Positions 6,389 through 22,824 of a stretch of 23,071 nt of DNA are shown one piece after another. The DNA comes from a virus, in IMG/VR virus record IMGVR_UViG_3300044825_002541, positions 1-23,071 of that record; one strand, 5' to 3'. The position numbers and the translations under genes were made by a program. Below the pieces are notes generated by a model, which was given only the letters and a program-made list of their open reading frames with translations, ran no database searches and was not told the DNA's origin. Position 1 is the stretch's first letter, and each line of letters opens with the position of its first letter.

Positions 6389-6539
6389 CCCTCCACCGGA
6401 GGGTCCTACGCATTTCATACAGGCTACCAGCCTGTATGAAATGGTTTAGAGATTCTGAAGCGCTAGGACCCCGAGGCTTCAGATTAGTACAAATTATAAC
6501 TTGCCAGCTTTAATTTGTACACTCCTTTGATCAAGGAGT
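6389..6539 (-). other. Highly structured capsid-gene leader (five dyads, possible pseudoknot)
   Basis: The gap between the scaffold-like and capsid genes contains several perfect inverted repeats. These are CCCTCC/GGAGGG (6389-6403), a 15-bp stem with 3-nt loop (6411-6425 with 6429-6443), TCTGAAGC/GCTTCAGA (6454-6461 with 6476-6483), GTACAAATTA/TAATTTGTAC, and ACTCCTT/AAGGAGT (6521-6527 with 6533-6539). In addition GGGTCCTA (6401-6408) pairs with TAGGACCC (6464-6471), which lies in the loop of the third stem; this is pseudoknot topology. No stem is followed by a U-run on the coding strand, so these look like leader or processing/stability structures rather than terminators. Confidence 0.6.
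6493..6531 (-). promoter_or_regulatory. Promoter P1 for the capsid gene (ATCAAA / TGTACA / TATAAT)
   Basis: On the minus strand, ATCAAA (6531-6526) is followed after 4 bp by TGTACA (6521-6516), then a 17-bp spacer and a perfect TATAAT (6498-6493). The -35 and -10 partly coincide with the arms of the dyad GTACAAATTA/TAATTTGTAC (6487-6496, 6511-6520). The architecture matches the other seven sites described in this window, so this is probably a real promoter giving extra transcripts of capsid and downstream genes. Confidence 0.75.
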
Positions 6540-6546
6540 TTTTGGA

Positions 6547-7275
6547 TCAAGCGCCTGGCAAATTGGCCATTGTCGAGTCACGGGCCGCGAGACCAGCATT
6601 GATTTTATCGACCGGAGACAATTTACTGAAGTCCTTGACACCAGAATTACTACCGCCGCCCGCACCGGAGCCTGTGGAGCCTTGGAACAAGTGGCCAGCG
6701 CCTGTGCGAAGGTTCACCAACCATTCTTCCACGGACATGGGTGTCTTGCCATCTTTACCATAGATCACCTGACCATCTGGACCCTTAGGTGTCGGCACTC
6801 CGTCCACGACAGTATAGACTGTTTTAGCTCGAAGCACAACATCCTCTACGGCGGACGGTACCACACCATTCTTGATGGCGGCAGTCTTCACAACATTATC
6901 AATCAGTAGAACTTCCAGTTGCCGGTTAGCAATGGCTAACTTCTGGTCACGTTCCGACAATTGGCCGTCATAGGTGGCTTTCATAGTCTTAACCCGTAGG
7001 TCGACCACTTCAGCCACCTTACCTTCCTTGATAAGTTTGCCCTCCTCAATTTCTTGCTGAATAGCCAGAAGCTCCGCGTGTTTGGCAGGGTCAATACCCT
7101 TAAAGCGATCGATTTGTCGCTGCAACTCGATATTGTTATTGCGGAATTCGTCGACGCGCTCCTTAGGAACAACGCCGTCAACATCCAGGAAGTACTTACC
7201 ATCTCGTGCAACGTATAGCCCACGTGAAGCTTCCGGCACGTCTTCCAGCTTGTCAACTTGATACTTGAGTCCCAT
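6547..7275 (-). CDS. Capsid scaffolding-like protein
   Basis: This 242-residue protein lies between portal and major capsid genes, the usual place for a scaffold or head-assembly chaperone. Residues about 40-130 are charged and strongly helical with coiled-coil character (VPKERVDEFRNNNIELQRQIDRFKG, AELLAIQQEIEEGKLIKEGK, LSERDQKLAIANRQLEVLL). A Gly/Ser linker (GSTGSGAGGGSNSG) precedes a short C-terminal segment, DFSKLSPVDKINAGLAARD, which could be the capsid-binding helix-loop. No protease catalytic motif is seen. Start ATG 7275-7273 follows the portal stop by 14 nt. It would direct procapsid assembly and then leave. The function comes from position and composition. Confidence 0.75.
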   Translation of the reverse strand: MGLKYQVDKLEDVPEASRGLYVARDGKYFLDVDGVVPKERVDEFRNNNIELQRQIDRFKGIDPAKHAELLAIQQEIEEGKLIKEGKVAEVVDLRVKTMKATYDGQLSERDQKLAIANRQLEVLLIDNVVKTAAIKNGVVPSAVEDVVLRAKTVYTVVDGVPTPKGPDGQVIYGKDGKTPMSVEEWLVNLRTGAGHLFQGSTGSGAGGGSNSGVKDFSKLSPVDKINAGLAARDSTMANLPGA

Positions 7276-7289
7276 GATAAGGCTTTCTA

Positions 7290-8669
7290 TTACGCCGTAG
7301 TAGGCGAGGGTTTAGCAGCAGGCGGCTTGTTTGGATCCAAGACTGGATCAGGTTCACGGATAGCCGCCAATTCATCCGCGTCCGTTCGGTGCGGGTCAAG
7401 AGCTTCGAGACGACGAAGATTGAACACCAGAGTTTCTTTGCTGATGCCGCCCTTAAAGTAAGCATCAAACAGTATGTTAAGGTCCTTGAATGTAATACCA
7501 AGGCCAATGATTTCACGTGAGAACAGTACCTCGACTACACTGCCGGCCTTCATCAGTTTGGCCAGCATATTATACAGTAGGGTCAGCCCCTGTTCAACAG
7601 CATTAATTATGTGAATCAGGCTTGCGGATTCGCTCATGTAACGTAGGCGCACTGTTTCAGCAGCCTCGGAGCCACGAGTTGAATTATCTATCAGACGTGC
7701 GGATACTGATGCCATGAGGCCCACTTTCTCCGTCATAGCTTTTTCTAGTGATTGCAAACCTTGACCTAGGAACTCCATGTAATAGGCTTTAGAGTTTGGG
7801 TCAGGCAGAATCCATGCTGAGGTACCTCCGATGGATAGCGCAGTGGTAGATTCTACACCAGATACCACAGGGGTTGGAAGCCCTGTAATATGTCGGCCCC
7901 ACTCCAAGTCCGCACTGGATAGATAGTGCGAAAGATTGATGGTGGATATATCCAGCATAGGAGGGCGGTCTGGATCCATATGGATGCCAGAAGCCCCGAA
8001 TGATACATATGGAATGTAATTTATTACTGAACCACTAAATGACGGCGTAATGGCGGGACCTTGAGGTGACAGCTCGTCGTCATACAACTGGACTGTGTAC
8101 ACACCATTATTAAGAAAACATTGGCGGTACCGGCATATCAGCTTGGTTGCAAATTTCTCATTCGGATCATCTTCGTAAGTATACTCACGAAACATGATAT
8201 CGATAGGTTCACCGGAGACTGGATCCGTCGTCCATCGCACAATATTTTCTGCAATGTACGGGGCAAATATCGGGTCCTTACTTCCTGATAGAGGCGCGTC
8301 GATCAGGATACCGTATCGACCCATTAGAGTTACCTCAGTAAAAACAGTTACATATAGCTCTGTAAACTGATTTTTGCCTGATGTATCCGTAAAGTATGGC
8401 TTCATCAGGTCCGGGTAAGTGCACTTAGGAGGCTTGGTAGTAGCCAAGCCAACCATTGTGGTTGTGGTCTTACCCGTAATAGGGAAAAACAACGCACGAC
8501 GCTTATAATTTTCGTAATCTTCGTTAGATTGACCCTTCAATCGAGGAAGATATAATTCACCGGCTTCTTTAATAGCCCGCTCGCCTTTGAAGCAATCCCT
8601 AATCTTGGCATAGTCTTCGCAATGGTACAAATACTGCGGATGGGCGAATTTCTTGAGATCTTTTGCCAT
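7290..8669 (-). CDS. Portal protein (DUF4055-type)
   Basis: The portal forms the dodecameric ring through which DNA is packaged and to which the neck attaches. The start is ATG 8669-8667, because AAGGA lies six bases upstream; a TTG two codons earlier overlaps the ribosome site. The 459-residue protein has features of the DUF4055 family (PF13264): N-terminal YKRRALFFPITGKTTTTMVGL, then YVTVFTEVTLMGRYGILIDAP, IVRWTTDPVSGEPI, IPYVSFGASG, and a long helical stem-like region (EKVGLMASVSARLIDNSTRGSEAAE). The C-terminus is Pro/Ala-rich (PPAAKPSPTTA). It lies 9 nt downstream of the terminase gene, the standard order. Confidence 0.9.
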   Translation of the reverse strand: MAKDLKKFAHPQYLYHCEDYAKIRDCFKGERAIKEAGELYLPRLKGQSNEDYENYKRRALFFPITGKTTTTMVGLATTKPPKCTYPDLMKPYFTDTSGKNQFTELYVTVFTEVTLMGRYGILIDAPLSGSKDPIFAPYIAENIVRWTTDPVSGEPIDIMFREYTYEDDPNEKFATKLICRYRQCFLNNGVYTVQLYDDELSPQGPAITPSFSGSVINYIPYVSFGASGIHMDPDRPPMLDISTINLSHYLSSADLEWGRHITGLPTPVVSGVESTTALSIGGTSAWILPDPNSKAYYMEFLGQGLQSLEKAMTEKVGLMASVSARLIDNSTRGSEAAETVRLRYMSESASLIHIINAVEQGLTLLYNMLAKLMKAGSVVEVLFSREIIGLGITFKDLNILFDAYFKGGISKETLVFNLRRLEALDPHRTDADELAAIREPDPVLDPNKPPAAKPSPTTA

Positions 8670-8678
8670 ATCCAATCC

Positions 8679-10097
8679 TTAGGTGCCGTGTACAGCACTA
8701 GTGCCTGCTGTAAGGGAGCTCTTCAATGCACGGTATTTCCATGCATCATAAATATGATCATTAGCACTGGAATCGACATCTTGAGGATTCTCCGGATCTA
8801 TTGGCAACTCGGGTAGTTGGCTTATGGTATGAACACAGTTCCTATGCACCAAAAGCCATGGCTGCTCAAAATTACGGGTGACAGCGGCCTTTAGTCGCTG
8901 CCTGGTTAATACAAAACCCCGCTCACGACTACCGGGTCGTTTATCAGCCTTAGTGAATCGAACGCCACGCTTTACATACTCATCATGAATCGAGGTCATG
9001 CCTCGATCCTTATCGAAAATGGATGAATCAGCTGGGCCAGCCTGAGTACGAGGTCTAAGGCCAAGATTTTGCTCATGATCATGAATACGCTGACCTATCT
9101 CAAAAGGCAGCAATCTCAGGCCCTTATCCTCCTTGTCAGCAAGATACTGCTCTGACAGAATGATAATTGACTTTCTTGGAACGATTACGTATCGGTTATT
9201 GATAATGGCACGTGTACCATCACTTTCTGCGCACCAGAGCGTGGCTCCTGGGGCAGAATAGCCGTAATCATGGCTTCTATCTAGAGTCCAAGTTCTCGGG
9301 ATTTCGATTTGCTCGATAATGTGCACATTTGGATCCCAAAGATCACTGAAGGCTGCACCCTCTTCCAGATCCCAATTACCTTCAAGGTAGGCCTGGGCAA
9401 GGCGATCATCGCCCAGACCCATAATTCGCTCACTATAAGATGCATCATTACGCATCAATATAGAGTTCTCCTTAGACAAGGCTGGGATGAATTCGCGGGT
9501 CATGCCTCCATCACTTACGGGCGCCTTAAATACATGACCTGATCCATGAGATACAAAGCCACGCTTAAAATAGCTATGACTGACCCCACCTGGATTAGTG
9601 CCATATATGATTTTTGGCAATAGATTTTTCCACTTATCAGGAACATTAAGGCCACCGAGTCGCACACGTGTGCGAATGAATCGAATCATTTTCTCAGTGA
9701 ATTGCGTAGCCTCATCAATGAGCAAAAGATGAATCTCAGCGCCCAGATAGCTGTTGATGTCGTTTTCGTGCTGGCAATGGCACAAATAAATCTGAGCGCC
9801 GTTCCAGAAATTCAGAACACCGTCTGACTTATTAAATACAACATCTCCTGCATCAATAAACGGCTTCAGCATTACCAGGAAGCCGTCTGCAGAGAAGACG
9901 TGGTTAATGTAAAGTTCCTTATACAACCGCCTGAACAGAAACACCTTAATGTTGGCAATTTCCATACAGAGTACGATTGCAAGTACTCGCATCATATAAC
10001 TCTTACCTGCGCCGGCAGCTCCGCCGTACAAGATTTCCAAAGCAGGCGAGGTTAGGGCTCGCTTCTGCTTTGGATAGAGTTTAAAATGGACGGTCAT
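8679..10097 (-). CDS. Terminase large subunit
   Basis: This 472-residue DNA-packaging motor protein carries the expected motifs. They are Walker A GGAAGAGKS (residues 25-33), Walker B LLLIDEATQ (D128, E129), the coupling motif GTNPGG (166-171), and the RNase H-like nuclease start LDRSHDYG (D273, D277). Further nuclease acidic residues lie in the C-terminal half, including the SSANDHIYDAWKY segment near the end. ATP hydrolysis would drive DNA into procapsids and the nuclease would cut concatemers. The ATG at 10097-10095 has no clear Shine-Dalgarno sequence and is preceded by GC-rich DNA belonging to the spike module. Normally this gene follows the small subunit directly; here about 4.3 kb of structural genes separate them. 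Confidence 0.97.
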   Translation of the reverse strand: MTVHFKLYPKQKRALTSPALEILYGGAAGAGKSYMMRVLAIVLCMEIANIKVFLFRRLYKELYINHVFSADGFLVMLKPFIDAGDVVFNKSDGVLNFWNGAQIYLCHCQHENDINSYLGAEIHLLLIDEATQFTEKMIRFIRTRVRLGGLNVPDKWKNLLPKIIYGTNPGGVSHSYFKRGFVSHGSGHVFKAPVSDGGMTREFIPALSKENSILMRNDASYSERIMGLGDDRLAQAYLEGNWDLEEGAAFSDLWDPNVHIIEQIEIPRTWTLDRSHDYGYSAPGATLWCAESDGTRAIINNRYVIVPRKSIIILSEQYLADKEDKGLRLLPFEIGQRIHDHEQNLGLRPRTQAGPADSSIFDKDRGMTSIHDEYVKRGVRFTKADKRPGSRERGFVLTRQRLKAAVTRNFEQPWLLVHRNCVHTISQLPELPIDPENPQDVDSSANDHIYDAWKYRALKSSLTAGTSAVHGT

Positions 10098-10149
10098 TAA
10101 ATGTTAACGATGGAGGGGTGGACTGGTCCCACCGGCAGGGGATGGGAAA

Positions 10150-11763
10150 TCAGGTGACCTGCGTCCAGCTTGAGCCGTCCGACACGTACTGGTGGTGATC
10201 ACTGCGCTGCACAAGTAGAGCGTTTGGGTACTTGATCGCGGGCGGCAGGGTCTCCACAATTCGCTCGCCACCTGGGTAGACGTGCAAGCGAGTCAAGGCG
10301 GTGCCGCCCCCACCGATGGATAAGCGGCTCGCGATGTACTCGCCGTAGGTATTGACCGTGACCGACTGATTGATGGTCAGTGCGGCAATCGCCGTTTGTG
10401 GGGTAGGCGGATCAGTGGCGATGACGCTGCGGAGCGTCCAATCGACATGCAGCGATGAGATGACAGTGAAGAGCATCACCAGGGGCAGGGGTCCATTGGA
10501 TAGCTCTAGCGTGCAAGTGCCTGTCTTTGCGCCGTTCACGTCCAAAGGGTTCTGGTTGAACTCGATCCCGCAGCACCCGCTACTGAGCACGTTGCGAGCG
10601 TTGATCGTGATCCTCCACCGATCACCGAAGTGACCACCACCAATCTGGATCAGAGGCACCTGCGAGCGGACATCGAAAAGTTCACCAGATGTCTTGCTGA
10701 AGTCGCTCAGGTCGAGCGTTCGGTGCGCGAGCTGATACTGTCCGCCGCCGCCAGCTTCCGAGAGCACCGAGGAGATGTATGTGCCCGGCGGGACGGCTGC
10801 ATTGCAGATGTACTGGGCGGCCGCGAACTGACCTTCCGCCAGTCCTCCCGCAGCCACCGTCATAACTCCATTCGTGATCGAGGTTGCGCCGTTTGCAGCA
10901 CGCGCGAATGCCACGGGCGGCATCACTGGCGAGTCCACCGTGATCTCGATCTCGTTGTTCGACGAGTTGTTTGAGTTGACGTTGTAAGTGTTCGTTTGGA
11001 AGCCGGTGCCTTCGCAGAAGATCACCTTGATGTCGCGAAGCCGGTTGTAGTTGCAGGCGTCGTCATAGGACGCCGACCCCTTGTCGGTCGAGTTGAGCAC
11101 CAACGCCGGCCGTGCTGTGGCCATGTCGCCGCACCAGCGCAGTTGCACGCTGCTGATCTCTGACTCGCGCAGCACCGAGGCCGCGTTGCTCGCTGGGTTC
11201 GACGGGATGCCAGAAAGGCACAGCCCAATGCCCTTAATGCACTGCACCTCGACGTGCGACATCTTCACTGTGTCGTTGCGGTCGTAGAAGATGATCCCGT
11301 TCTGGGTCTGCGAGGTGCGCCGGTCACCGATGATGGAGAAGCCGTGAAGCGTCACGCCAGACTTGCGAGCCGTGTTGTTGGGCCATGTCACGGCAGTGAC
11401 TGGGTGACCAGTCGAAGTGGAACCATCCGGCATGGTGACGACATCTGTGCCGTACCAAGTGTTGCTGAAGGCCAGGACATCACCGGACATTGCCGGGTCA
11501 ACGACGATCCAGCAATTTGATATTCCATCACCCCAGATCGCCAGGGCTCGCGTGATCAGCCCGCCCAAGGGCTTGGTGATCCGATACACACCAGAGCCCA
11601 GGTAAACCCCACCATTGCCCATCGCCAGGGCCTGTGTGATGGCCCAGATGATGGCGTCACTGTCGTCGTTGACGCCATCGGTGCGGCCGGCGTAGATGTT
11701 GTACATCTGCGGCGTCACAACGCGGGGCGTCATGAACGCTTCATTGCCTACGGGATACTGCAT
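10150..11763 (-). CDS. Tail spike with pectate-lyase-like beta-helix (putative depolymerase)
   Basis: This 537-residue protein has residues about 20-75 matching the N-terminal part of the pectate lyase superfamily (Pectate_lyase_3, PF12708): NIYAGRTDGVNDDSDAI, then GNGGVYLGSGVYRI and LGGLITRALAIWGDG. The rest is rich in short beta repeats, Asn, Ser and Gly, as in right-handed beta-helical tail spikes. Such proteins bind and often hydrolyse surface polysaccharide. The C-terminus ends HQYVSDGSSWTQVT. There is no obvious particle-binding anchor of its own, so it may dock on the preceding fibre protein. Start ATG has GAGG six bases upstream. The gene is much richer in G+C than the flanking terminase gene (hand count for 10741-10800: 43 of 60). 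Confidence 0.85.
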   Translation of the reverse strand: MQYPVGNEAFMTPRVVTPQMYNIYAGRTDGVNDDSDAIIWAITQALAMGNGGVYLGSGVYRITKPLGGLITRALAIWGDGISNCWIVVDPAMSGDVLAFSNTWYGTDVVTMPDGSTSTGHPVTAVTWPNNTARKSGVTLHGFSIIGDRRTSQTQNGIIFYDRNDTVKMSHVEVQCIKGIGLCLSGIPSNPASNAASVLRESEISSVQLRWCGDMATARPALVLNSTDKGSASYDDACNYNRLRDIKVIFCEGTGFQTNTYNVNSNNSSNNEIEITVDSPVMPPVAFARAANGATSITNGVMTVAAGGLAEGQFAAAQYICNAAVPPGTYISSVLSEAGGGGQYQLAHRTLDLSDFSKTSGELFDVRSQVPLIQIGGGHFGDRWRITINARNVLSSGCCGIEFNQNPLDVNGAKTGTCTLELSNGPLPLVMLFTVISSLHVDWTLRSVIATDPPTPQTAIAALTINQSVTVNTYGEYIASRLSIGGGGTALTRLHVYPGGERIVETLPPAIKYPNALLVQRSDHHQYVSDGSSWTQVT

Positions 11764-11771
11764 CGCCTACC

Positions 11772-12656
11772 TCAGCTTGGCAGCAGCCAGAGGGCGCAGT
11801 AACCGATTTGCGGCAGCGTTGAGCCGGTGGCTGCAGCGAGTTGCACAGTCGGCGCGAAGTAGAGGCGCTGTGTGGTGTCGCCGACGTCCCACGCCCCAAC
11901 GGCAAGTGACGTCCCACCGGCAGCGAACCCGGCCCCTGACGTCGTTGGTGCCCCCACCTTTTCGACTTGTGTTGCACCCACGACTCTAAGGCGATACGAG
12001 TTGCCATAGGTTCGGACAGTGGATGTCAGGGATGCGCATCCACTACCGTTTCCCCGGGCCGCGTCCGAAATCGTCCCAAGGTTCCCGATGCGGAAGCTGG
12101 CTGTTGTTCCGGCATCGGTCGTGTTTGAGCGCGCAAGCGTGTATTCAAAAAGAATTTCGCAGCCGGTGAACAGCAGACCGGCAGGGATGCTCAGGCTTTT
12201 GATGTACTGCTCTGCCGTCGAGTTGACGCCGCTGTCAAGCGTCAGGCTTCGGTCAACAAGCACCATGGCTGTCGGGCGCCACTTGCCGCTGGCCTGGTGG
12301 TACGCGAAGAGTCCGCGCACGCCAGAGTAAAGGTCGGTGACGTAGCAGCTCGTGCCATCGGCCGGAGCCCACGCAAGCATTTCCGCTAGCGTCTTGAGCG
12401 AAATCCCGGCCCTTGACACTAGAGCGTCGGCTTCAATGGCGCTTTTGGCCGTCACAATCGCTTGACCTCCGCCGTCATCCAAATCGATCGGCGTGATTAC
12501 TTCAGCCTGAAGCCGCTTCATCGAATCATGCGTAGCAAGATCCGAAGTTATCGTCGAAAGATCTGTAAAAATCTTATTCTCGAATGGCTTCAGCGTATAC
12601 GCAGGATTGAGCAGTGTAATGGCATAGTTAACCAAACTGACGACTTGGACAGCCAT
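11772..12656 (-). CDS. Tail fibre/spike protein with duplicated N-terminal anchor
   Basis: The start is ATG 12656-12654, with AAGGAA upstream and the lipoprotein stop only 2 nt before. The 294-residue protein begins MAVQVVSLVNYAITLLNPAY. Its first ~63 residues align without gaps to the gene at 13249 (about 39 of 63 identical), so they form a shared module, probably a virion anchor. After it, from about residue 70, DNA becomes GC-rich and the protein is beta-rich (SGVRGLFAYHQASGKWRPTAMVLVDRSLTLDSGVN, QIGYCALWLLPS), resembling small phage head-binding or carbohydrate-binding fibre domains. It lies 8 nt upstream of the spike gene. Receptor binding or spike attachment is the likely role, by inference. 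Confidence 0.72.
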   Translation of the reverse strand: MAVQVVSLVNYAITLLNPAYTLKPFENKIFTDLSTITSDLATHDSMKRLQAEVITPIDLDDGGGQAIVTAKSAIEADALVSRAGISLKTLAEMLAWAPADGTSCYVTDLYSGVRGLFAYHQASGKWRPTAMVLVDRSLTLDSGVNSTAEQYIKSLSIPAGLLFTGCEILFEYTLARSNTTDAGTTASFRIGNLGTISDAARGNGSGCASLTSTVRTYGNSYRLRVVGATQVEKVGAPTTSGAGFAAGGTSLAVGAWDVGDTTQRLYFAPTVQLAAATGSTLPQIGYCALWLLPS

Positions 12657-12658
12657 GA

Positions 12659-12862
12659 TTATTCCTTCTTGCCACAAATGACTGCGGCATCGTCCGGTGA
12701 AATTTTGGAAGCAACCCCGATTGGACCATACAGCGATGCTACCAGCAATTGCTTACCGTCAGCTGTGCATGCAACACGGTTTTCGAAGGTCTTCTCCATA
12801 CTACTACAACCTGTCAGGGTCATGATAAGGAGTACGGCTGCAATGGAAGAGCTGTATTTCAT
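12659..12862 (-). CDS. Small phage lipoprotein
   Basis: The start is ATG 12862-12860 with AAGGA seven bases upstream. The 67-residue product (MKYSSSIAAVLLIMTLTGCS) has a classic lipoprotein signal: two-residue basic N-region, hydrophobic stretch 7-17 and lipobox L16-T17-G18-C19. Ser at +2 predicts outer-membrane sorting. The mature part is about 49 residues, with two more cysteines (VACTADGK, AAVICGKKE). Candidate roles are an outer-membrane spanin or a T5 Llp-like superinfection-blocking lipoprotein. It is not embedded in an inner-membrane spanin gene, so I cannot choose. A lipoprotein of this kind points to a Gram-negative host. It sits between two fibre-anchor genes. Confidence 0.75.
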   Translation of the reverse strand: MKYSSSIAAVLLIMTLTGCSSMEKTFENRVACTADGKQLLVASLYGPIGVASKISPDDAAVICGKKE

Positions 12863-12866
12863 GATC

Positions 12867-13249
12867 TCATCCTTTAAAGATACCGACCTGGACTGCTCCT
12901 GATTGAGCAATCTTTCGATGGGTTTTAGTGATCATATGAACACCGTCGGAAGTGCGAGCAGGTGTAGCGGACCCTGTATCAATAGCAAAGAATCCAGAAT
13001 TACGGCCGGATTCAACTGCATCTGCAATTTGCGAGCCCTTTTGGAGACCTTGGCATAGCCGCTACTGTCATACTCATCTATATTGGGCAGGACCTCCGCG
13101 GTTAGCGTTGCTGCGGCATCCTCAGCGGCCAGATTAGATGTGATAATGGAAATATCTGGGAAAATCTTAGTTTCGAAGGGTTTAAACGTATACGCTGGAT
13201 TCGTAAGAGTTACAGCGTAATTGACAAGACTTTGAACTCGGACGGCCAT
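12867..13249 (-). CDS. Fibre-anchor protein, frame changes at about 13040
   Basis: The zero frame starts at ATG 13249-13247 (or ATG 13255, coupled by ATGA to the gene before). It encodes MAVRVQSLVNYAVTLTNPAY and the same anchor module as the 12656 gene. In the zero frame it would continue to a stop at 12932 with an unconvincing hydrophobic tail. In the -1 frame, from AAAA at 13042-13039 onward, the sequence reads KGSQIADAVESGRNSGFFAI and ends VGIFKG at TGA 12869-12867, exactly 4 nt before the lipoprotein start. That leaves no gap. The full product would be about 127 residues. There is no canonical slippery heptamer, so this is a programmed shift of unusual type, a true mutation, or a sequence error in a homopolymer. 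Confidence 0.6.
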
Positions 13250-13251
13250 GA

Positions 13252-13614
13252 TCATTTCCCCTGCGGAGTTTTGAGAGCACGGATTTCGTACTCATTACCT
13301 AGTGTCTTTTCGGTCAGCAGTCTGATTGTCGTATCACGTTCGTGCTGCGAACGCTCCAGACTTTGAAGCCTAAGCTCGATTGTAGCTGAGGCTAAATTAT
13401 TCTTATTCACAGCGTCTTCGACCGCTTGCAGACGCCCAAGCACCGCGTTCAGTGCCCACAATGACATTGGAATAAACACCGCTGTCATTATGTACTGCAG
13501 CACTTTCAGCAGAGCTGAATCTGCAATTGATTGAAGTTTTTGCTCTGCCATACGCCTATGGTAAGGTTGTTTGGACAAAGGATTGAATGATCCAGGCTTC
13601 GAATCTTCAGCCAT
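13252..13614 (-). CDS. Single-span membrane protein with C-terminal coiled coil
   Basis: The start is ATG 13614-13612 with GGAGG four bases upstream; longer forms lack a ribosome site. The 120-residue protein has a polar basic N-terminus (NPLSKQPYHRRMAEQK) and one transmembrane segment at about 38-59 (VLQYIMTAVFIPMSLWALNAVL). A charged coiled coil follows (LGRLQAVEDAVNK, IELRLQSLERSQHERDTTIRLLTEK). The C-terminus carries no enzyme motif. One membrane span plus a coiled coil is compatible with a holin-like, inner-membrane spanin-like or superinfection-exclusion protein; the neighbouring lipoprotein makes a two-protein envelope pair possible. It ends in an ATGA overlap with the next fibre-anchor gene. 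Topology is confident, function unknown. Confidence 0.7.
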   Translation of the reverse strand: MAEDSKPGSFNPLSKQPYHRRMAEQKLQSIADSALLKVLQYIMTAVFIPMSLWALNAVLGRLQAVEDAVNKNNLASATIELRLQSLERSQHERDTTIRLLTEKTLGNEYEIRALKTPQGK

Positions 13615-13627
13615 ATGGCCTCCAATA

Positions 13628-13882
13628 TTAGCCTCCCACCGACTCTCTCCACACTCGCACCACTGTGGACTCATTCATTTCGTCGACTGGATTACCGTCC
13701 GCAACCAGTTGAATGGATATATCGCGAGTCAATTTGGCCCGATTCAGGCTCTGCTGTACATCCTGAGGCAGTGCCTGATAGTCAGCATAGTTGACTTCTA
13801 CGAATTTCCATGGCGCAATAGTAATTGGACCAAACTCCAACTTACGCCCAACATAGCTGCGGATAACCGTAACCATTCGCAT
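13628..13882 (-). CDS. Hypothetical 84-residue protein
   Basis: ATG 13882-13880 has AGGAG six bases upstream. The protein begins MRMVTVIRSYVGRKLEFGP and has a beta-rich first half (ITIAPWKFVEVNYADYQAL) followed by a helical segment (PQDVQQSLNRAKLTRDISIQLV) and a conserved-looking DGNPVDEMNE. I do not recognise a family. It lies between the 158-residue structural-like gene and the membrane protein, with gaps of 42 and 13 nt. That position in the late operon makes a minor virion role plausible, but nothing in the sequence proves it. Confidence 0.7.
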   Translation of the reverse strand: MRMVTVIRSYVGRKLEFGPITIAPWKFVEVNYADYQALPQDVQQSLNRAKLTRDISIQLVADGNPVDEMNESTVVRVWRESVGG

Positions 13883-13924
13883 GCAGTTCTCCTGAAATTG
13901 CGGGCTCCGAAGAGCCCGCGATCA

Positions 13925-14401
13925 TCAACCGATGCGATACCAGGTTGTGTCTGCGGCGTTCCACTTCCACTTGCTGAAGCCATTGGCGGTGCCGGCAGTC
14001 AGTGCGCCCCGGAGAGTGCCGACTGGAGCCGTGTGGGTGAGCGCGGTCACAATCTGAGTAGTGGCAATGCGCAGTTCTTGACCATCATAGGGCGCCGGAG
14101 GCATGGTCAGAGTGAGCGCCGCAATTGTGCCGGCCGGCACAATGTAAACTTCTTCGGCGTCATTGGGGATGGCCTGAGTCACGCCGGTCAGTGGGGTGTA
14201 CTTGTACACCTTCTTCTTATCGGAGACTTCCTTGGCGGCATCATCGACATTCACACCGGTAATAGTGCGAGCGAGGATGGCAGCAGCCACATTGGTGTCA
14301 GTGATCAGGCCGGGGTGGTAAACCGAAGCTTTGAAGGCAGCGACGACCGTGCCGTCGATGGTGACATCGGCATTGGTCAGATTGGCAAGATAGCAAGGCA
14401 T
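13925..14401 (-). CDS. Putative structural protein (decoration or fibre-like)
   Basis: ATG 14401-14399 has AGGAG six bases upstream. This 158-residue protein starts MPCYLANLTNADVTIDGTVV. It is rich in Ala, Thr, Val and beta strands. The C-terminal half, from VYIVPAGTIAALTLTMPPAP to WKWNAADTTWYRIG, resembles the end of phage fibre or capsid-decoration domains, where a Trp/Tyr-rich strand closes a beta sandwich. There are no membrane segments or catalytic motifs. It is the first gene after the small terminase-like gene and precedes the envelope/fibre group. A virion surface role is inferred from composition and context. Confidence 0.65.
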   Translation of the reverse strand: MPCYLANLTNADVTIDGTVVAAFKASVYHPGLITDTNVAAAILARTITGVNVDDAAKEVSDKKKVYKYTPLTGVTQAIPNDAEEVYIVPAGTIAALTLTMPPAPYDGQELRIATTQIVTALTHTAPVGTLRGALTAGTANGFSKWKWNAADTTWYRIG

Positions 14402-14430
14402 GAGATTCTCCTAAGAATCAGTTGAAATGG

Positions 14431-14763: not shown

Positions 14764-14783
14764 AATCCTACCACCTTTTGATC

Positions 14784-14822
14784 ATTATAAATAGCTCGAA
14801 AGTCCTTGTACAACGTTTTGAT
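14784..14822 (-). promoter_or_regulatory. Promoter P2 for the late (terminase) operon
   Basis: On the minus strand, ATCAAA (14822-14817), 4 bp, TGTACA (14812-14807), a 17-bp spacer and a perfect TATAAT (14789-14784). The start codon at 14763 is 20 bp from the -10, so the leader would be only about 14 nt, just long enough for the ribosome site. It has the same architecture as seven other sites here, so it is a strong candidate. Confidence 0.82.
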
Positions 14823-14932
14823 CGAATCCTTTTGGTACGGATCCAGGACCATGTGCGTTGTTCTTCGAAAATTTCGGTAAAACCACTGGTCATCGACCAA
14901 CTCTCAACGCACTTCGTTTAGATCTCAACACG

Positions 14933-14960
14933 CATCGCTCATCGCTCATCGCCCATCGTA
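14933..14960 (+). repeat. Tandem heptamer array, 4 x CATCGYN
   Basis: Four consecutive 7-bp units read CATCGCT, CATCGCT, CATCGCC, CATCGTA without gaps. A second four-unit array with the same core and the same terminal CATCGTA lies at 16587-16614. Two-unit inverted versions occur at 17052-17065, 17109-17122 and 17825-17838. The repeats are outside coding regions and near promoters, so they may be protein-binding sites. Confidence 0.7.
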
Positions 14961-15114
14961 CACTGTAAAAGGGCTGCAAAGTCTCAAAATCCCGGGCGAC
15001 CTGGGCCCCGAGCCTGGCCAGGACTAGGGCCCCCTGTTACACTTTACAGACGTAATGGATTGTAACAAGATGTTAGATATGTAACAGAATGAAATGATAC
15101 AAACTCTTACATAT

Positions 15115-15199: not shown

Positions 15200-15523
15200 A
15201 TGACTACCCATACCGATACCCAAGTCGCGGCCGTCCGGTCCATGACCAACAAGGAGATGGTCGTCGCCATCCTCGAGTTGCAAGCTCAAGTGAAGGCTTT
15301 GCAAGAAGCATCCACCAAGCCGAAGACCGAAGGCAAGGAAATGACCGATGATGACGCATACAAGGTCATCTTCGGCGACATGTCTTCGGTGAGGCACAAG
15401 GATGCCGCGGACAAGCTCGGACTCACCTACGGACAAGTCTACTCGGCACGACTCGGCTTCACCTTCAAGAATGTGCACAAGCAAGGTGCAGCCGAGGGTA
15501 AGAAGAATCCTTGGGCGAAGTAA
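15200..15523 (+). CDS. Helix-turn-helix-like regulator, plus-strand paralogue
   Basis: This 107-residue protein is one of the few plus-strand genes, with AAAGGAAA before the ATG. The N-terminal part (MTNKEMVVAILELQAQVKALQEA) is a short coiled coil. Residues about 47-93 form a helical domain with the motif HKDAADKLGLTYGQVYSARLGFTFK, which looks like a helix-turn-helix or homing-type DNA-binding unit. The C-terminus (GKKNPWAK) is basic. The domain is clearly shared with the minus-strand gene at 16473 (MTD-x-DA, GDM, HK-AA, GLTY-QVYS, GFTFK). I do not recognise a named family. Transcription regulation or DNA binding is the best inference, possibly acting on the repeat-rich sites nearby. Confidence 0.78.
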   Translation: MTTHTDTQVAAVRSMTNKEMVVAILELQAQVKALQEASTKPKTEGKEMTDDDAYKVIFGDMSSVRHKDAADKLGLTYGQVYSARLGFTFKNVHKQGAAEGKKNPWAK

Positions 15524-15952: not shown

Positions 15953-16014
15953 TGAATCCGTCGATCCTCTGGGGAGTGCACACCGCACATCGGGCCTCGT
16001 GGGCCCTTAAGATG

Positions 16015-16473
16015 TCACTTCTTGTGGATCGTAGTACTCTTTTCCCAAGTATTCTTCCATCCAGTCTTCTCGAGGTCATGGATGACATGCTTGAATGTGA
16101 ATCCACCCCTACACGAATACACCTGAGCGTAGGTCAAGCCCATTGCAATTGCAGCCTCTTTGTGATTGAGGTCTTTCATGTCACCTTGCAACACCCGCAT
16201 TGCATCGGCGTCCGTCATATTCCGCTTTGTAGGGGCACTCTTATTGCGGCCCTCGACCTTGGCAGTTAGTGTATCCACTTGGTCGGTAAGACCAGCGAGT
16301 ACACCACCGATGTGCGATGTGATTTGGGTCTCCAAATCCACGATCTTGTGACCGTGTGCATCGGAGGTTTTTCCGGCTGCCTCAGCAAGCTCAAAAAGCT
16401 TATTGATTTGCACTTGGAGGCTGTCGAGACGGCCCTTGATTTCGGTAAGGTCTTGGTCAACACGGGGGTTCAT
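16015..16473 (-). CDS. Coiled-coil, helix-turn-helix-like regulator (minus-strand paralogue)
   Basis: The likely start is ATG 16473-16471, giving 152 residues (MNPRVDQDLTEIKGRLDSLQ); longer forms need TTG or upstream DNA without a ribosome site, although the Shine-Dalgarno before this ATG is also weak. Residues 1-80 form a long coiled coil (LTEIKGRLDSLQVQINKLFEL, VDLETQITSHIGGVLAGLTDQ). Residues about 85-145 repeat the DNA-binding-like domain of the 15200 gene (MTDADAMRVLQGDMKDLNHKEAA, GLTYAQVYSCRGGFTFK). Oligomerisation through the coiled coil and binding to repeated sites is plausible. It has its own promoter P3, and its 3' end converges on the plus-strand paralogue's operon. Confidence 0.78.
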   Translation of the reverse strand: MNPRVDQDLTEIKGRLDSLQVQINKLFELAEAAGKTSDAHGHKIVDLETQITSHIGGVLAGLTDQVDTLTAKVEGRNKSAPTKRNMTDADAMRVLQGDMKDLNHKEAAIAMGLTYAQVYSCRGGFTFKHVIHDLEKTGWKNTWEKSTTIHKK

Positions 16474-16520: not shown

Positions 16521-16560
16521 ATTGTATACCATTCTGGCGTCCCTTGTACATATATTTGAT
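16521..16560 (-). promoter_or_regulatory. Promoter P3 for the minus-strand regulator
   Basis: ATCAAA (16560-16555), 4 bp, TGTACA (16550-16545), then either TATACA after 16 bp (16528-16523) or TACAAT after 18 bp (16526-16521). The leader to ATG 16473 is about 40 nt. The ATCAAA-N4-TGTACA half is identical in layout to P1, P2, P4 and P5. Confidence 0.72.
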
Positions 16561-16586
16561 CGAGGTCCTGCACCTTTATCATGGCC

Positions 16587-16614
16587 CATCGCACATCGTG
16601 CATCGTGCATCGTA
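16587..16614 (+). repeat. Tandem heptamer array, 4 x CATCGYR
   Basis: Units CATCGCA, CATCGTG, CATCGTG, CATCGTA follow without gaps, about 27 bp upstream of the P3 ATCAAA box. They share the core and final unit with the array at 14933-14960, also placed upstream of a promoter of the same family. Confidence 0.7.
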
Positions 16615-16754: not shown

Positions 16755-17200
16755 GTTTACCCACCCCGAACAAGACCTACCCACCTTAGGTGGGTAAACC
16801 TAATTGCCAAAAGTCGTTATAAATTAATAACTTAAGTGTTTACCCACTATTTACTACATAAGTACGTACAAGTTCCTACTTTATTTTTTTAATACTTACA
16901 GAGTATTATGGCAATGATTACTCCTTTTATTATTTCTTTAATAATATATAGTTATGTAGTAAATAGTGGGTAAACACTTAAGTTATTAATTTATAACGGC
17001 TTTTTACTATTAGGTTTAGCACACGCCGACGGTAACTATTGTGGTAAATCATACGATGTGCGATGCACAACGGTGGGTAAATACTTGTCCGGAGTACATT
17101 GGGCCTTGTACGATGTGCGATGTGTAACGTACCAATTCTTCCGGACGAGTGTACAGGTGTCACAGAAGCTACCCTCCTGGATCGTTTTGAGTGGGTAACA
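16755..17200. repeat. Seven GTGGGTAAAC-type sites (iteron/operator candidates)
   Basis: Minus orientation: 16755-16764, 16775-16784 (GTGGGTAGGT) and 16838-16847. Plus orientation: 16790-16799, 16966-16975, 17073-17082 (GTGGGTAAAT) and 17191-17200 (GTGGGTAACA). Most extend toward GTGGGTAAACAC. The second and third sites in order form a perfect palindrome TACCCACC-TTA-GGTGGGTA at 16778-16796. Two sites lie inside the arms of the long inverted repeat. No such sites were noticed elsewhere in the window. Confidence 0.75.
16795..17018. repeat. 67-bp inverted repeat with 90-bp AT-rich centre
   Basis: Arms 16795-16861 and 16952-17018 are reverse complements at 63 of 67 positions; the inner 47 bp (16815-16861 and 16952-16998) are perfect. 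The centre (16862-16951) is very AT-rich and contains a small dyad AATACT/AGTATT. The structure could extrude as a large cruciform, form a long RNA stem, or present paired sites for a dimeric or looping protein. Confidence 0.9.
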
Positions 17201-17359: not shown

Positions 17360-17785
17360 TTAGAAGTACTTCTCAACAGCGGGTTGGAAATGACGGATCA
17401 TATTGTCCGTATCCATGTAGAATGCCCATGCACGACGTATGGCGTCCGTACGACTGAAACTAGTATCATCGTCTTGAAAGGAGCCTTCCGAGTGCATCCA
17501 GCGGTATTGACCGTGCCAGCCGTTGCCGTACACCTTGCCCATGTCTTCGATGATGAAGCCGTGTTGGATGAGGATCTCTTCATGACGGCAGTCGTAGACT
17601 GCGTTCATCATGCTGAGCCATTCGAGGTCATCTGCACTGAGGCCGTATTCTTGCGTCGGATCGACGGCAAATAGGTTGGAACTTGAGACGTACGGGTCTG
17701 TCACGAAGATGCCGGACTGTTCGTCGTAAAAGCCAAATGCCGGCTCAGATGAAGCTTCGGCAGTTCGGTTGAGTTCAAGTTGCAT
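17360..17785 (-). CDS. Hypothetical acidic 141-residue protein
   Basis: The start is ATG 17785-17783 with GGTGGAG five bases upstream; a longer frame to 17845 would run through promoter P7 and is rejected. The protein (MQLELNRTAEASSEPAFGFY) is acidic and rich in aromatic residues. Its C-terminal half contains GKVYGNGWHGQYRWMHSEGS and DAIRRAWAFYMDTDNMIRHF, with no recognised motif or membrane segment. It is transcribed alone, between promoter P7 and the UUCG terminator, so it is probably expressed as a single-gene unit. Early phage genes arranged this way often encode host-interaction factors, but that is inference only. Confidence 0.75.
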   Translation of the reverse strand: MQLELNRTAEASSEPAFGFYDEQSGIFVTDPYVSSSNLFAVDPTQEYGLSADDLEWLSMMNAVYDCRHEEILIQHGFIIEDMGKVYGNGWHGQYRWMHSEGSFQDDDTSFSRTDAIRRAWAFYMDTDNMIRHFQPAVEKYF

Positions 17786-17813: not shown

Positions 17814-17852
17814 ATTATACTGCGCCCGATGCACGATGTACACACAATTTAT
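17814..17852 (-). promoter_or_regulatory. Promoter P7 for the 17785 gene
   Basis: TGTACA (17842-17837), a 17-bp spacer and perfect TATAAT (17819-17814). The upstream box at the expected position is ATAAAT (17852-17847), four of six matching ATCAAA. The spacer contains two CATCG heptamers (17825-17838). The ATG is 28 bp downstream. Confidence 0.75.
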
Positions 17853-18929: not shown

Positions 18930-18931
18930 GA

Positions 18932-19183: not shown

Positions 19184-19399
19184 TTATTCCTTGAATGTGT
19201 TTTGCACGATGCTGATGATATCGTCGGTGTATCCGACGATGCCGTTCCAAGTGAGCCACGCATTAACGACGTCTCGCTTGGAATAGAGTTCAGCGCCCTT
19301 ATTAGCGCTCAAGAACTCTTCGACATGGTACTGCTGCTGGCCGTTGAGTTGCTGGAACGCATCTATTGCGGGTCCAGTAATACGGTCTGTGATGCTCAT
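19184..19399 (-). CDS. Hypothetical protein (71 residues), first gene of the P5 operon
   Basis: ATG 19399-19397 has AGGAG six bases upstream and lies about 38 bp from the P5 -10. The protein MSITDRITGPAIDAFQQLNG is helical and mixed in charge, with QQQYHVEEFLSANKGAELYS and NAWLTWNGIVGYTDDIISIV. It has no membrane segment and no motif I recognise. It leads a run of seven small genes separated by -4 to +23 nt, so it is probably co-expressed with two cysteine-rich microproteins and a paralogous pair. Confidence 0.7.
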   Translation of the reverse strand: MSITDRITGPAIDAFQQLNGQQQYHVEEFLSANKGAELYSKRDVVNAWLTWNGIVGYTDDIISIVQNTFKE

Positions 19400-19436: not shown

Positions 19437-19474
19437 ATTATACTGCTCCGATCACGGATGTACACCAGTTTGAT
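19437..19474 (-). promoter_or_regulatory. Promoter P5 for a seven-gene operon
   Basis: ATCAAA (19474-19469), 4 bp, TGTACA (19464-19459), 16-bp spacer, perfect TATAAT (19442-19437). The upstream box and -35 lie within the last codons of the gene ending at 19452. Confidence 0.8.
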
Positions 19475-19709: not shown

Positions 19710-19715
19710 GCGTAT

Positions 19716-19797: not shown

Positions 19798-19810
19798 ACA
19801 TAGTTGTGTG

Positions 19811-19987: not shown

Positions 19988-20208
19988 TTCCAGTAAGGCC
20001 TTTCAATAGGCTTGTCATCAAGAGGTGCAGGTGAGGTCATGATTTCGTCCATTGCTCGTTGGCAATCCTCATCACCACATTCTGCCATACATCGGAGGCA
20101 GTCCCCGCCGCAGTCCTCAGTAGTCCGATCATTAGGATCGTTCAAGGCCCGCTTGCAGATACCGCAATAATGGATGAATGGCTTTGAGCATTGTGGATAT
20201 GTTTTCAT
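19984..20208 (-). CDS. Cysteine-rich putative zinc-binding protein (74 residues)
   Basis: ATG 20208-20206 overlaps the ATPase stop codon (ATGA). The protein MKTYPQCSKPFIHYCGICKR contains a first CxxC (CGIC) with a preceding Cys and His. A second group follows (DCGGDCLRCMAECGDEDC), so there are nine or more cysteines in about 50 residues. Two zinc ions or an iron-sulphur site could be bound. The C-terminus is Pro-rich and polar. No family is recognised. It sits between an ATPase and a zinc-ribbon microprotein, with both junctions coupled by ATGA, suggesting coordinated stoichiometry. Confidence 0.7.
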   Translation of the reverse strand: MKTYPQCSKPFIHYCGICKRALNDPNDRTTEDCGGDCLRCMAECGDEDCQRAMDEIMTSPAPLDDKPIERPYWK

Positions 20209-21293
20209 GGTTCCCAATCCTTAGCCGTCTTTATCAAGTCTTTGAAAGCCTCAATCGCCTTGCTCCGCATTTCACTGCGGTTAGCTTTGAGCCATCGTTC
20301 CAATTGCACATACGGCAATGCCGCAGGCTCTTTAACCGGCTGGGAAGTCCTGTAACTGTGGGAACTAGATACAAGGGTCGCATATGGACCACCCATAGTA
20401 ACGATCTGAGTCTCGATGAGGCCTGATTTAACCTTTTCTTCAAGATCAGCACGATTCTTGGCAATGATCTTGCCAGGATGCTTCTTCGTAAAGATGCGAT
20501 ACAGTGTCTCTTTGAGAATTTCAGGAGCCCCGTATTCAGCGTATTCCATGTCAGGCACTTCGGCCTCGATGAGCGATGCGATTTCTTCCCAGCGCTCAGT
20601 TTGGAACCAAAGCTCCTTGGTCCACCATCCGAGATTGAAGCCGTCAACAGTCTTACGATCCCGTTCCAAGGCCACAGTACCTGGATTCAGGTTGTAACCA
20701 TACTTCATCTTGGTGTCACAGATGTATAGACCACCGATGTACAGCTTACCAGGCTTCTCCAGCAATATCGTACCGCTGACAGCCTGTGCAATTTGGCCGA
20801 TGTGCTTTTGCATCATGAGGCAAGACTCAATGATGGCATCGATTTCGGATGGCGATAGCTTTTCAATGACAAAACGAAGGCCTTCATTACGACGAGGCGA
20901 AATCGTATCCTCGATGCATAATACATCCGCATCATAGGTTTTGCTGAACTTGAACATGGGTCGCCATACACGATCACCATTGTAAATGGTCACAGCCCGG
21001 TTTTCACGGGCCAACACCAGCAATGCAATCTTGTAGCCCTCACCGAATGATCCAATCGCATCCGTACGTTCGGCTTTGGACGTAGAACCAAGCAGCAAGG
21101 TCGTAGGAGAAAGCGTTGCATAGCGGCTGATGATATGCAGATCGCCCTGCTCGGTGAATTCATACTCGAACGGAGATTCCGAGTCAATGGCGTTTTGAAT
21201 GAGCTCACGTACTGCTTCGACCAAGCCCCAGTGACGGACGTAGGTTGGTGAGATTGGAAGCTCGTAAGTCTTCTTAGTAAACATGTCCATCAT
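20205..21293 (-). CDS. GHKL (Hsp90/rIIA-like) ATPase
   Basis: The start is ATG 21293-21291 (MMDMFTKKTYELPISPTY) with GGGAGG six bases upstream. The 362-residue protein has a Bergerat ATP-binding fold. The N box is ELIQNAIDS (E30, N34, D37) and the lid/G2 box is GSFGEGYK (81-88). The intervening G1 region reads ISRYATLSPTTLLLGSTSK, so the usual DxGxG is degenerate. Phage relatives include T4 rIIA-like proteins and Hsp90-like ATPases; the rest of the protein (GWWTKELWFQTERWEEIASL, YRIFTKKHPGKIIAKNR) would be a substrate or partner domain. T4 rIIA counteracts host exclusion; a similar host-defence role is plausible but inferred. It is coupled at both ends by ATGA. Confidence 0.82.
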   Translation of the reverse strand: MMDMFTKKTYELPISPTYVRHWGLVEAVRELIQNAIDSESPFEYEFTEQGDLHIISRYATLSPTTLLLGSTSKAERTDAIGSFGEGYKIALLVLARENRAVTIYNGDRVWRPMFKFSKTYDADVLCIEDTISPRRNEGLRFVIEKLSPSEIDAIIESCLMMQKHIGQIAQAVSGTILLEKPGKLYIGGLYICDTKMKYGYNLNPGTVALERDRKTVDGFNLGWWTKELWFQTERWEEIASLIEAEVPDMEYAEYGAPEILKETLYRIFTKKHPGKIIAKNRADLEEKVKSGLIETQIVTMGGPYATLVSSSHSYRTSQPVKEPAALPYVQLERWLKANRSEMRSKAIEAFKDLIKTAKDWEP

Positions 21294-21412
21294 AGTTCGC
21301 CTCCCATACAGAACATTCTCCAGAAATCGCGATGATTCATATACGGAAGATGCTGCATAGCAGCTTCCCATTCGGCATCGTCAAACCACTCATTGGCCTC
21401 ATGTGTGCTCAT
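21290..21412 (-). CDS. 40-residue acidic microprotein leading the ATPase operon
   Basis: ATG 21412-21410 has AGAGG four bases upstream. The frame encodes MSTHEANEWFDDAEWEAAMQ and ends RMFCMGGEL, with TGA overlapping the ATPase start (ATGA). It is acidic at the N-terminus and Trp-rich and Met-rich throughout. The position directly between promoter P8 and the ATPase, plus the overlap, suggests it is translated and couples ATPase translation. No known family. Confidence 0.68.
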   Translation of the reverse strand: MSTHEANEWFDDAEWEAAMQHLPYMNHRDFWRMFCMGGEL

Positions 21413-21430
21413 ATAACCTCTAGAAGTAAC

Positions 21431-21486
21431 AACGGCGTATAGATACATTATACGCCGTTGCTGCTATCCATGTAAACCAGAATTAC
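21431..21486 (-). promoter_or_regulatory. Promoter P8 with -10 inside a perfect 11-bp dyad
   Basis: TTTACA (21476-21471), an 18-bp spacer and perfect TATAAT (21452-21447). The upstream box is not conserved here. The dyad AACGGCGTATA-N7-TATACGCCGTT (21431-21441, 21449-21459) covers the -10 and the probable transcription start, so a repressor bound there would block initiation, or the first transcribed bases could take part in a structure. Confidence 0.68.
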
Positions 21487-21490
21487 TCGG

Positions 21491-21820: not shown

Positions 21821-21834
21821 CATTACCTCTAGGG

Positions 21835-21906
21835 TTGCGCCAGTAGGACTCGAACCTACGACCTGGGACCGATGACATCCCCGCTCTACCGCTGAGCTAT
21901 GGCGCG
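21835..21906 (-). tRNA. tRNA, anticodon read as CAT, initiator-like C1xA72 end
   Basis: A full cloverleaf folds from 21906 to 21835. The acceptor 5' strand is CGCGCCA (21906-21900) pairing with TGGCGCA except for a C1-A72 mismatch. The D arm is GCTC-AGCGGTA-GAGC, and the anticodon stem is GGGAT/GTCCC (one U-G pair). The T arm is GTAGG-TTCGAGT-CCTAC with a canonical TTCGA loop, and G15-C48 Levitt pairing is possible. The 7-base anticodon loop reads GTCATCG, giving CAT after U33, but G32 and C37 are unusual. The 3' end reads CGCAACC, like initiator tRNA but without the final A. Initiator-type GGG/CCC at 29-31:39-41 is absent. The amino acid identity (Met or Ile) is uncertain. Confidence 0.8.
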
Positions 21907-21910
21907 CCAA

Positions 21911-22194: not shown

Positions 22195-22200
22195 GATTGC

Positions 22201-22461
22201 TTAACGCCCAGCGCGAAGCGGCTTGCCCGCAATCTTGACCTTGCGACGTGCGTTGAGCTCAGCCTTACGCTCAAGGGCCATACGTTCGGCGGATGCCCGC
22301 ATACGGGCTGCCAAGGCCGTATTGCTGTTGATCAGCCGAAAACCAGCATTGGGGGCCACATTCTTGGCCTGACGACGAATTTCGCGCGTCTCACGACGGG
22401 CGAGGAACGCCGTAAAGGCCTCAGTGAACTTCTTGAATTCACGCTTGCTAGCAAATTCCAT
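22201..22461 (-). CDS. Very basic helical protein (86 residues)
   Basis: ATG 22461-22459 has GGAG six bases upstream; two upstream in-frame starts (22476 TTG, 22473 ATG) lie within the ribosome-site region and are rejected. The protein MEFASKREFKKFTEAFTAFL is rich in Arg, Lys and Ala, with FLARRETREIRRQAKNVAPN and RMRASAERMALERKAELNAR. It ends KIAGKPLRAGR. It is almost all helix and strongly positively charged, so nucleic acid or nucleoid binding is likely. It is the first gene of the unit driven by P6, which also contains the tRNA. Confidence 0.72.
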   Translation of the reverse strand: MEFASKREFKKFTEAFTAFLARRETREIRRQAKNVAPNAGFRLINSNTALAARMRASAERMALERKAELNARRKVKIAGKPLRAGR

Positions 22462-22509
22462 GTAGTGCTCCATCAAATTGTACAGTTGAACTATTCAACC
22501 GTTAATACA

Positions 22510-22549
22510 ATTGTACATCCTTCTGGCTGCCTATGTACACACATTTTAA
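22510..22549 (-). promoter_or_regulatory. Promoter P6 for the basic-protein/tRNA unit
   Basis: TGTACA (22539-22534), an 18-bp spacer and TACAAT (22515-22510). The upstream box at the conserved spacing is TTAAAA (22549-22544), four of six matching ATCAAA. The leader is about 40 nt. A second TGTACAAT-like word occurs at about 22476-22483 within the leader. Confidence 0.68.
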
Positions 22550-22553
22550 TCGG

Positions 22554-22778
22554 CTATTTGAGCTCGAACAGATAATCCTGCATTCGAAGATCCTCAAGCT
22601 GCCAAATAAAGTGGATGTGGGTTACGCCGGCCATTTTGAGTTTCGTAGTCTCATTGCCGCTGATTAGAACGCCGCCAGAGAGGTATACTCTATAAGGCTT
22701 GCCATCGTGCCAGTCTGCAAGGATCTCATCCCGAGATTGCGGAGTACGACGATGAGGTGTTACGTACCATTTAAGCAT
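22554..22778 (-). CDS. Hypothetical protein, probably leaderless mRNA (74 residues)
   Basis: ATG 22778-22776 is only 6 bp from the end of the P4 TATAAT, so transcription would start at or next to the A of the start codon. No ribosome site could be transcribed and no other ATG occurs before about residue 48. The protein MLKWYVTPHRRTPQSRDEIL has a basic beta N-terminus, then YRVYLSGGVLISGNETTKLK and HIHFIWQLEDLRMQDYLFEL. It has small alpha/beta character, with no recognised family. It is the only gene of its unit before P6. Confidence 0.66.
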   Translation of the reverse strand: MLKWYVTPHRRTPQSRDEILADWHDGKPYRVYLSGGVLISGNETTKLKMAGVTHIHFIWQLEDLRMQDYLFELK

Positions 22779-22784
22779 GACGGT

Positions 22785-22824
22785 ATTATACCTTCGAGTA
22801 ATGCCCAGTGTACACTCTTTTGAT
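22785..22824 (-). promoter_or_regulatory. Promoter P4 for the leaderless gene
   Basis: ATCAAA (22824-22819), 4 bp, TGTACA (22814-22809), 18-bp spacer, perfect TATAAT (22790-22785). The upstream box begins 7 bp after the stop codon of the preceding gene. Confidence 0.8.

Follow-up and report, generated by a model that had tools for sequence, protein, structure and literature searches.

The 23,071-base virus record IMGVR_UViG_3300044825_002541, a fragment that is called the window here in its whole length, carries a siphophage gene set, including a DUF4055 portal, terminase, scaffold, major capsid protein and tail tube, and is punctuated by a recurrent promoter-like element of the form ATCAAA-N4-TGTACA-N16-18-TATAAT. 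Judged by the portal, its nearest cultured relatives are Xanthomonas phage Xp15 (41%) and the Acinetobacter phages HHU4, Effie and MD-2021a (38-39%). IMG/VR holds one near-identical contig and several relatives, and a megablast search of positions 5300-14900 against phages gave zero matches.

A first-pass annotation had described eight such sites on the minus strand, five of them with an exact ATCAAA box 4 bp before the -35, and had likened their -10 and spacing to those of sigma70-type promoters. All eight were found, the five boxes were confirmed by the sequence, and a TATAAT-like -10 lies behind a spacer of 16-18 bp (Table 1). When scored with a refined matrix, seven of the sites reach 21.5-38.3, while 21447-21486, the only weak one, is doubtful at 12.3; no further site in the rest of the window exceeds 11.5, and the reversed window tops out at 6.3. 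The complete element occurs in exact form four times, on the minus strand only, and never in the reversed control, the fifth site with an exact ATCAAA (16521-16560) having TACAAT as its -10. The shorter TGTACA-N16-18-TATAAT is present five times, as compared with none in 100 dinucleotide shuffles. These sites sit before the genes for the major capsid protein, the terminase small subunit, a helix-turn-helix (HTH) protein and a phrog_6077 protein, and before four small accessory genes. The suggestion that they precede nearly every transcription unit goes slightly too far, as the portal, terminase large-subunit, scaffold and tail genes lack a motif site of their own and are presumably cotranscribed.

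Table 1. Predicted promoter sites, HTH-A genes and repeat cluster in the window, with refined-matrix scores of the promoter sites.
Feature	Position	Strand	Box, -35, spacer, -10	Score	Remark
Capsid promoter	6493-6531	-	ATCAAA 6531-6526, TGTACA 6521-6516, N17, TATAAT 6498-6493	38.3	
Promoter of terminase small-subunit-like gene (14431-14763)	14784-14822	-	ATCAAA, TGTACA, N17, TATAAT	35.5	
TGTWACA-like repeat cluster	15035-15086	.			Lies between HTH-A gene 1 and the gene for the terminase small subunit; may be an operator array or a packaging or origin site
HTH-A gene 1	15200-15523	+			N-terminal coiled coil, C-terminal HTH; strand opposite terminase large-subunit gene; candidate motif reader
HTH-A gene 2 (paralogue)	16015-16473	-			Downstream of motif promoter 16521-16560
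Promoter of second HTH-A gene (16015-16473)	16521-16560	-	ATCAAA, TGTACA, N18, TACAAT	29.5	Predicted transcript opens with a hairpin
Promoter of small gene 17360-17785	17814-17852	-	ATAAAT, TGTACA, N17, TATAAT	28.3	
Promoter of small gene 19184-19399	19437-19474	-	ATCAAA, TGTACA, N16, TATAAT	33.8	5' hairpin
Weak member, upstream of phrog_6077 gene 20205-21371	21447-21486	-	GTAATT, TTTACA, N18, TATAAT	12.3	
Promoter of small gene 22201-22473	22510-22549	-	TTAAAA, TGTACA, N18, TACAAT	21.5	5' hairpin
Promoter of gene 22554-22778	22785-22824	-	ATCAAA, TGTACA, N18, TATAAT	33.4	

The promoter class across the lineage

What had been put forward as a phage-wide family proved to be lineage-wide and consistent in strand. 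An exact motif scan of IMG/VR returned 46 stretches of DNA, and the carriers now comprise Xanthomonas phage Xp15, where the box reads ATTARA in place of the window's ATCAAA, the Acinetobacter phages Effie, HHU4 and MD-2021a, and dozens of uncultured contigs with a G+C content of 37 to 64%. Contigs with multiple copies prove to be relatives of the window: G036 (58.9 kb) has nine near-exact copies of the box and -35 on a single strand, and G017 (35.2 kb) has eight of its nine copies on one strand. A motif site lies at the corresponding place upstream of the capsid gene in seven contigs (G001, G037, G003, G021, G036, G007 and G002). Alignment of the seeds gives the consensus TRATYAAA-RNN-GTGTACAW-N16-18-TATAATR, in which the flanking T, R, G and W came from the data and lay outside the seed definition. 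The ATYARA box stands at a gap of 4 in 34 of 42 close-clade sites; other gaps are mostly low, but a gap of 9 accounts for 9 of 42.

In 30 lineage contigs, a ranking of every hexamer that lies 16-18 nt before a TA[TC]AAT put TGTACA first of 4096 (58 against 1.74 expected, p 6e-66), with GTGTAC (49 against 1.1), TTTACA (34 against 2.5) and TGTACT (24 against 1.3) also enriched, counts that are inflated because some of these contigs, though many were not, had originally been fetched for carrying the motif. Five contigs not fetched in this way (G054, G058, G066, G046 and G044) singly give the same top hexamers. The canonical TTGACA shows no excess in the same ranking (1 against 1.77 expected). A cross-validated matrix, trained on the window's clade only, found 49 matches against 1 in reversed sequence in 21 contigs outside the training set, which had been chosen via an HTH gene or portal similarity and not by the motif; a matrix search of seven outgroup phages (350 kb) found 0 sites. 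The first-pass annotation had named in advance a comparison of intergenic and coding frequency on which the family could fall, and the family survives it, with 125 of 137 sites intergenic against 34.4 expected when genes are called by a simple home-made caller. Shuffles, matrix controls and the hexamer ranking rule out a chance origin of the motif, and the copies in IMG/VR relatives and cultured phages rule out its restriction to this fragment. As a set of predicted promoters shared by the lineage, the class can be considered well established.

The box of the capsid promoter lies within an inverted repeat, ACTCCTTGATCAAAGGAGT (window 6513-6540, minus strand), whose counterpart in G037 shows paired changes, CCCCTCGATCAAAGGGG.

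Predicted starts and leaders

The distance from the -10 to the first gene carries a signal of its own. An ATG at an offset of 6 nt after the -10 occurs in 24 of 129 non-redundant sites, as compared with about 2-3 at other offsets, and the predicted start has A at +1 in 59% and a pyrimidine at -1 in 77% of cases. Such a signature, with a purine +1 some 6-7 nt after the -10, fits the 6-8 nt expected of sigma70-type promoters, and the spike at offset 6 is predicted to mark the start site and, with it, some leaderless mRNAs. Examples of the leaderless type include the DNA polymerase in G036, G017 and G039 (ATG 5-7 nt past the -10), the ligase in G036, the helicase in Xp15 and the window gene 22554-22778, where the ATG lies precisely 6 nt past the -10 and a leaderless mRNA is predicted. 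Window 22778 is an exact case, and near cases are G036 31377, G017 10900 and Xp15 36857. Among the remaining sites, some would give transcripts with a hairpin at the 5' end and most others leaders of at least 20 nt. A hairpin near the 5' terminus is predicted for 50 of the 129 transcripts against 33 in shuffles, a moderate enrichment, and the predicted starts concerned include window 22503, 19430, 16514 and 6486. Such terminal hairpins possibly protect the 5' end of the mRNA.

The capsid transcript, with a start predicted at about 6486, would open with a long structured leader (window 6339-6486, minus strand) that is conserved in relatives. Of 15 pairs in its long hairpin, 12 show compensatory changes (covariation 0.887 against 0.25 shuffled), and the hairpin is 94.7% paired, against at most 40% when slid. 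The CTCC of an invariant CTCCGGTGG in this leader has two possible pairing partners, a local one and GGAG, the ribosome-binding site of the capsid gene. A search of Rfam with the leader gave no match, and the leader is a candidate translational operator.

Elsewhere in the window, a tRNA-Met (CAT) gene lies within the accessory block (21833-21906, minus strand) and is the sole match of an Rfam search of the window. The gene behind the weakest motif site encodes a PHROG 6077 protein of 388 amino acids and unknown function (E 7e-95; 20205-21371, minus strand).

HTH-A, HTH-B and the proposed reading of the element

A candidate reader of the element is encoded in the window itself. In both HTH-A paralogues a coiled coil at the N-terminus is followed by a C-terminal HTH that is strongly conserved, and the AlphaFold model of the HTH domain, with a predicted local distance difference test (pLDDT) score of 95.5, supports a DNA-binding fold. 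HTH-B, the second family universal in the lineage, combines an N-terminal HTH-like domain with an acidic C-terminus. The two are related by profile (hhalign E 2.6e-5), and when the HTH-A domain is compared with viral proteins by structure, an Xp15 protein of HTH-B length ranks second among its neighbours. Within INPHARED, HTH-A is confined to Xp15, Effie, HHU4 and two MD-2021a records, and IMG/VR contains 41 HTH-A loci. All 15 near-complete lineage members carry both families, whereas none of seven outgroups with portal, terminase or replication genes in common does, and in many contigs, including at the second HTH-A copy of the window, HTH-A or HTH-B genes are preceded by motif sites. A search of prokaryote genomes for HTH-A yielded a single match, L115 (JASJBC010000013.1), a contig in a metagenome-assembled genome of Acidimicrobiia. 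Six motif-like sites, with a TGTACA/TTTACA-type -35 and TAGAAT/TACAAT, occur in 20 kb of L115, which suggests that the system extends to an actinobacterial host, if the contig was binned correctly. Around the HTH pair of the window are short dispersed repeats of the CATCGCA/CATCGTG type (14933-14960, 15978-16001, 16584-16613 and 17052-17129), and G044 has repeats resembling them.

Given these elements, we consider the chances about even that the -10 is recognised by a host sigma70-type polymerase, and the ATYAAA/TGTACA pair by a phage HTH protein. One promoter class of the Xp15-like siphophages would then drive genes for replication, accessory functions, regulation and the capsid. Host RNA polymerase carrying its principal, sigma70-type factor would recognise TATAAT, with sigma region 2 suggested by the conserved TATAAT and its spacing, and would initiate on the 7th base beyond this hexamer. 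HTH-A, possibly together with its relative HTH-B, would read the element at about -47 to -29, where TRATYAAA and GTGTACA lie 10 bp apart centre to centre, that is on adjacent helical turns, so that one protein could read both from one face of the DNA. There it would assist or replace sigma region 4 at the -35. Because several HTH genes lie behind motif promoters, the circuit is probably self-feeding. The TGTWACA-like arrays with 10-bp phasing beside HTH-A genes, described below, also count in favour of this reading. The motif, with its enrichment, placement, orientation and conservation, the start-site signature and the co-occurrence with HTH-A/HTH-B are observed, and from them we infer binding of HTH-A/B to the motif, activation rather than repression, and a host sigma70 that supplies -10 recognition.

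Several observations weigh against such a reading. T4 early promoters, in which GTTTAC occupies -36 to -31 and an A-rich element -44 to -40, are used by host polymerase without a phage factor (PMC1524935, PMC2988021), and they constitute the strongest argument against a required activator: since a host-only layout of the T4 kind works, the promoter sequence does not demand one. Host sigma70 holoenzyme alone might likewise suffice here, taking GTGTACA for its -35 and ATYAAA for a proximal UP element, and if transcription begins on the 7th base past the -10, GTGTAC would sit where GTTTAC does in T4; the enriched TTTACA is, moreover, a common alternative -35 in these contigs. Plain sigma70 promoters of the TTGACA type are unsupported, there being no TTGACA excess, though this absence is not decisive, because a T4 control block lacks such an excess as well. 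Further, the box is placed more loosely in distant members, standing at a gap of 4 in 18 of 74 sites, and four contigs with HTH-A (G067, G070, G071 and G076) have just 0-1 matrix sites. The primase and one further gene are as universal as HTH-A/B, and co-occurrence is thus confounded by shared descent. Finally, sequence and fold searches of the PDB found no significant relative of HTH-A.

The host-only explanation is the main rival, though a less likely one. The box is sequence-specific, with a middle pyrimidine and a conserved T-R before it, and rigidly placed, unlike an A-tract UP element. The -35 is constant over Xanthomonas, Acinetobacter and probably an actinobacterium (L115), and the element is kept across diverse hosts and G+C contents. 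Its presence tracks the HTH genes, and it is missing in the seven outgroup phages with shared structural or replication genes. These features speak for a specific factor, and a phage-encoded activator is plausible, with HTH-A/B as the candidate family.

The genomic setting of HTH-A raises a different possibility, namely that the double element is an operator at which HTH-A or HTH-B keeps these promoters repressed up to some later stage, the -35 being a compromise between operator and sigma recognition. In 20 of 25 contigs HTH-A and the terminase large-subunit gene are on opposite strands, which is repressor-like, and TGTWACA repeat arrays occur at the HTH-A promoter region. Such arrays are found near several HTH-A genes with a 10-bp phasing (TTACA/TAACA 111 against 23 expected; 21 pairs at exactly 10 bp). 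Clusters homologous to that of the window were seen in G044, G045, G043, G003 and G011, and are 10-bp phased in several relatives; the arrays could be autoregulatory operators of HTH-A, a pac/cos site or an origin. However, an operator would neither need to match the -35 exactly at every promoter nor displace TTGACA genome-wide, and the sites govern nearly all gene classes, replication and capsid included, making a repressor improbable. Much more remote is the idea that the -35 has been adapted so that host or phage sigma reads hypermodified phage DNA. Genes for thymidylate-synthase-like, deaminase and carbamoyltransferase proteins are annotated in Xp15 and MD-2021a and are near-universal in the group, but the modification is predicted from these genes and would leave the box unexplained.

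Activation by HTH-A/B would define, more broadly, a system in which small coiled-coil HTH proteins appropriate host polymerase at a two-box replacement of the -35, across very different hosts, with one class for replication, accessory, regulatory and capsid genes and partly leaderless mRNAs. That this is such an undescribed system is a tentative proposal, to which we give somewhat less than an even chance. A search of the open-access literature found nothing relevant on a TGTACA phage promoter, on these phages or on these proteins (subscription papers lay outside the search). Promoters that are specific to a phage and have a suspected phage regulator are known as a class, while this layout and protein family appear new. 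The analysis assigns an experimentally accessible lineage (Xp15, Effie and HHU4) a definite promoter code and names a candidate regulator for it, encoded by genes previously just hypothetical. If HTH-A/B reads the element, sigma appropriation would have been solved a second time, by unrelated means and in a form that functions in several host genera, and the promoter and its activator would be a pair that can be moved into tools. The constant spacing between -10 and ATG would, in addition, document widespread leaderless phage mRNAs in Gram-negative hosts.

Comparison with known systems

The CII-dependent promoters of lambda have TTGC-N6-TTGC flanking a poor -35, with the activator on two elements one helical turn apart. 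In the lineage, too, a pair of elements is spaced by one turn of the helix in the region of the -35, but here one of them is the -35 itself. A link to sigma region 4 or to the NUMOD-type HTH of phage homing endonucleases is hinted at by weak profile matches of HTH-A, to Sigma70_r4_2 in 22 of 36 members, to HTH_23 and HTH_28 in 18-22 of 36 and to the I-HmuI_NUMOD-like HTH in 30 of 36, and by its top structural neighbours outside the family. The best match to Sigma70_r4_2 (E 2.6e-5 in one member) is weak and on a par with those to other HTH families. Unlike these proteins, HTH-A is a short coiled-coil protein with neither sigma region 2 nor a nuclease domain, and there is no significant fold match.

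T4 middle promoters, which depend on MotA and AsiA, resemble the present class in retaining the host -10, in replacing the -35 with a phage-specific box and in having a small phage DNA-binding protein, here a proposed one, as reader. The MotA box, TGCTTtA, is centred at -30, 12 +/- 1 bp from the -10 (PMC2988021), whereas the lineage boxes lie at about -45 to -40 and -35 to -30 and differ in sequence as well as in position. MotA is, moreover, a double-wing protein, and the prediction for HTH-A is an HTH protein with a coiled coil. The closest likeness in layout is to the T4 early promoters, which share a near-identical -35 core at the same position, an A-rich element just upstream, TATAAT and genome-wide use. 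Even so, GTTTAC is the minority form of the -35 in the lineage contigs (27 against 49 for GTGTAC), the lineage preferring GTGTACA, and a sequence-specific TRATYAAA box stands 4 bp before TGTACA. The lineage class also differs from T4 early promoters in covering capsid and terminase genes and in being tied to carriers of HTH-A and HTH-B.

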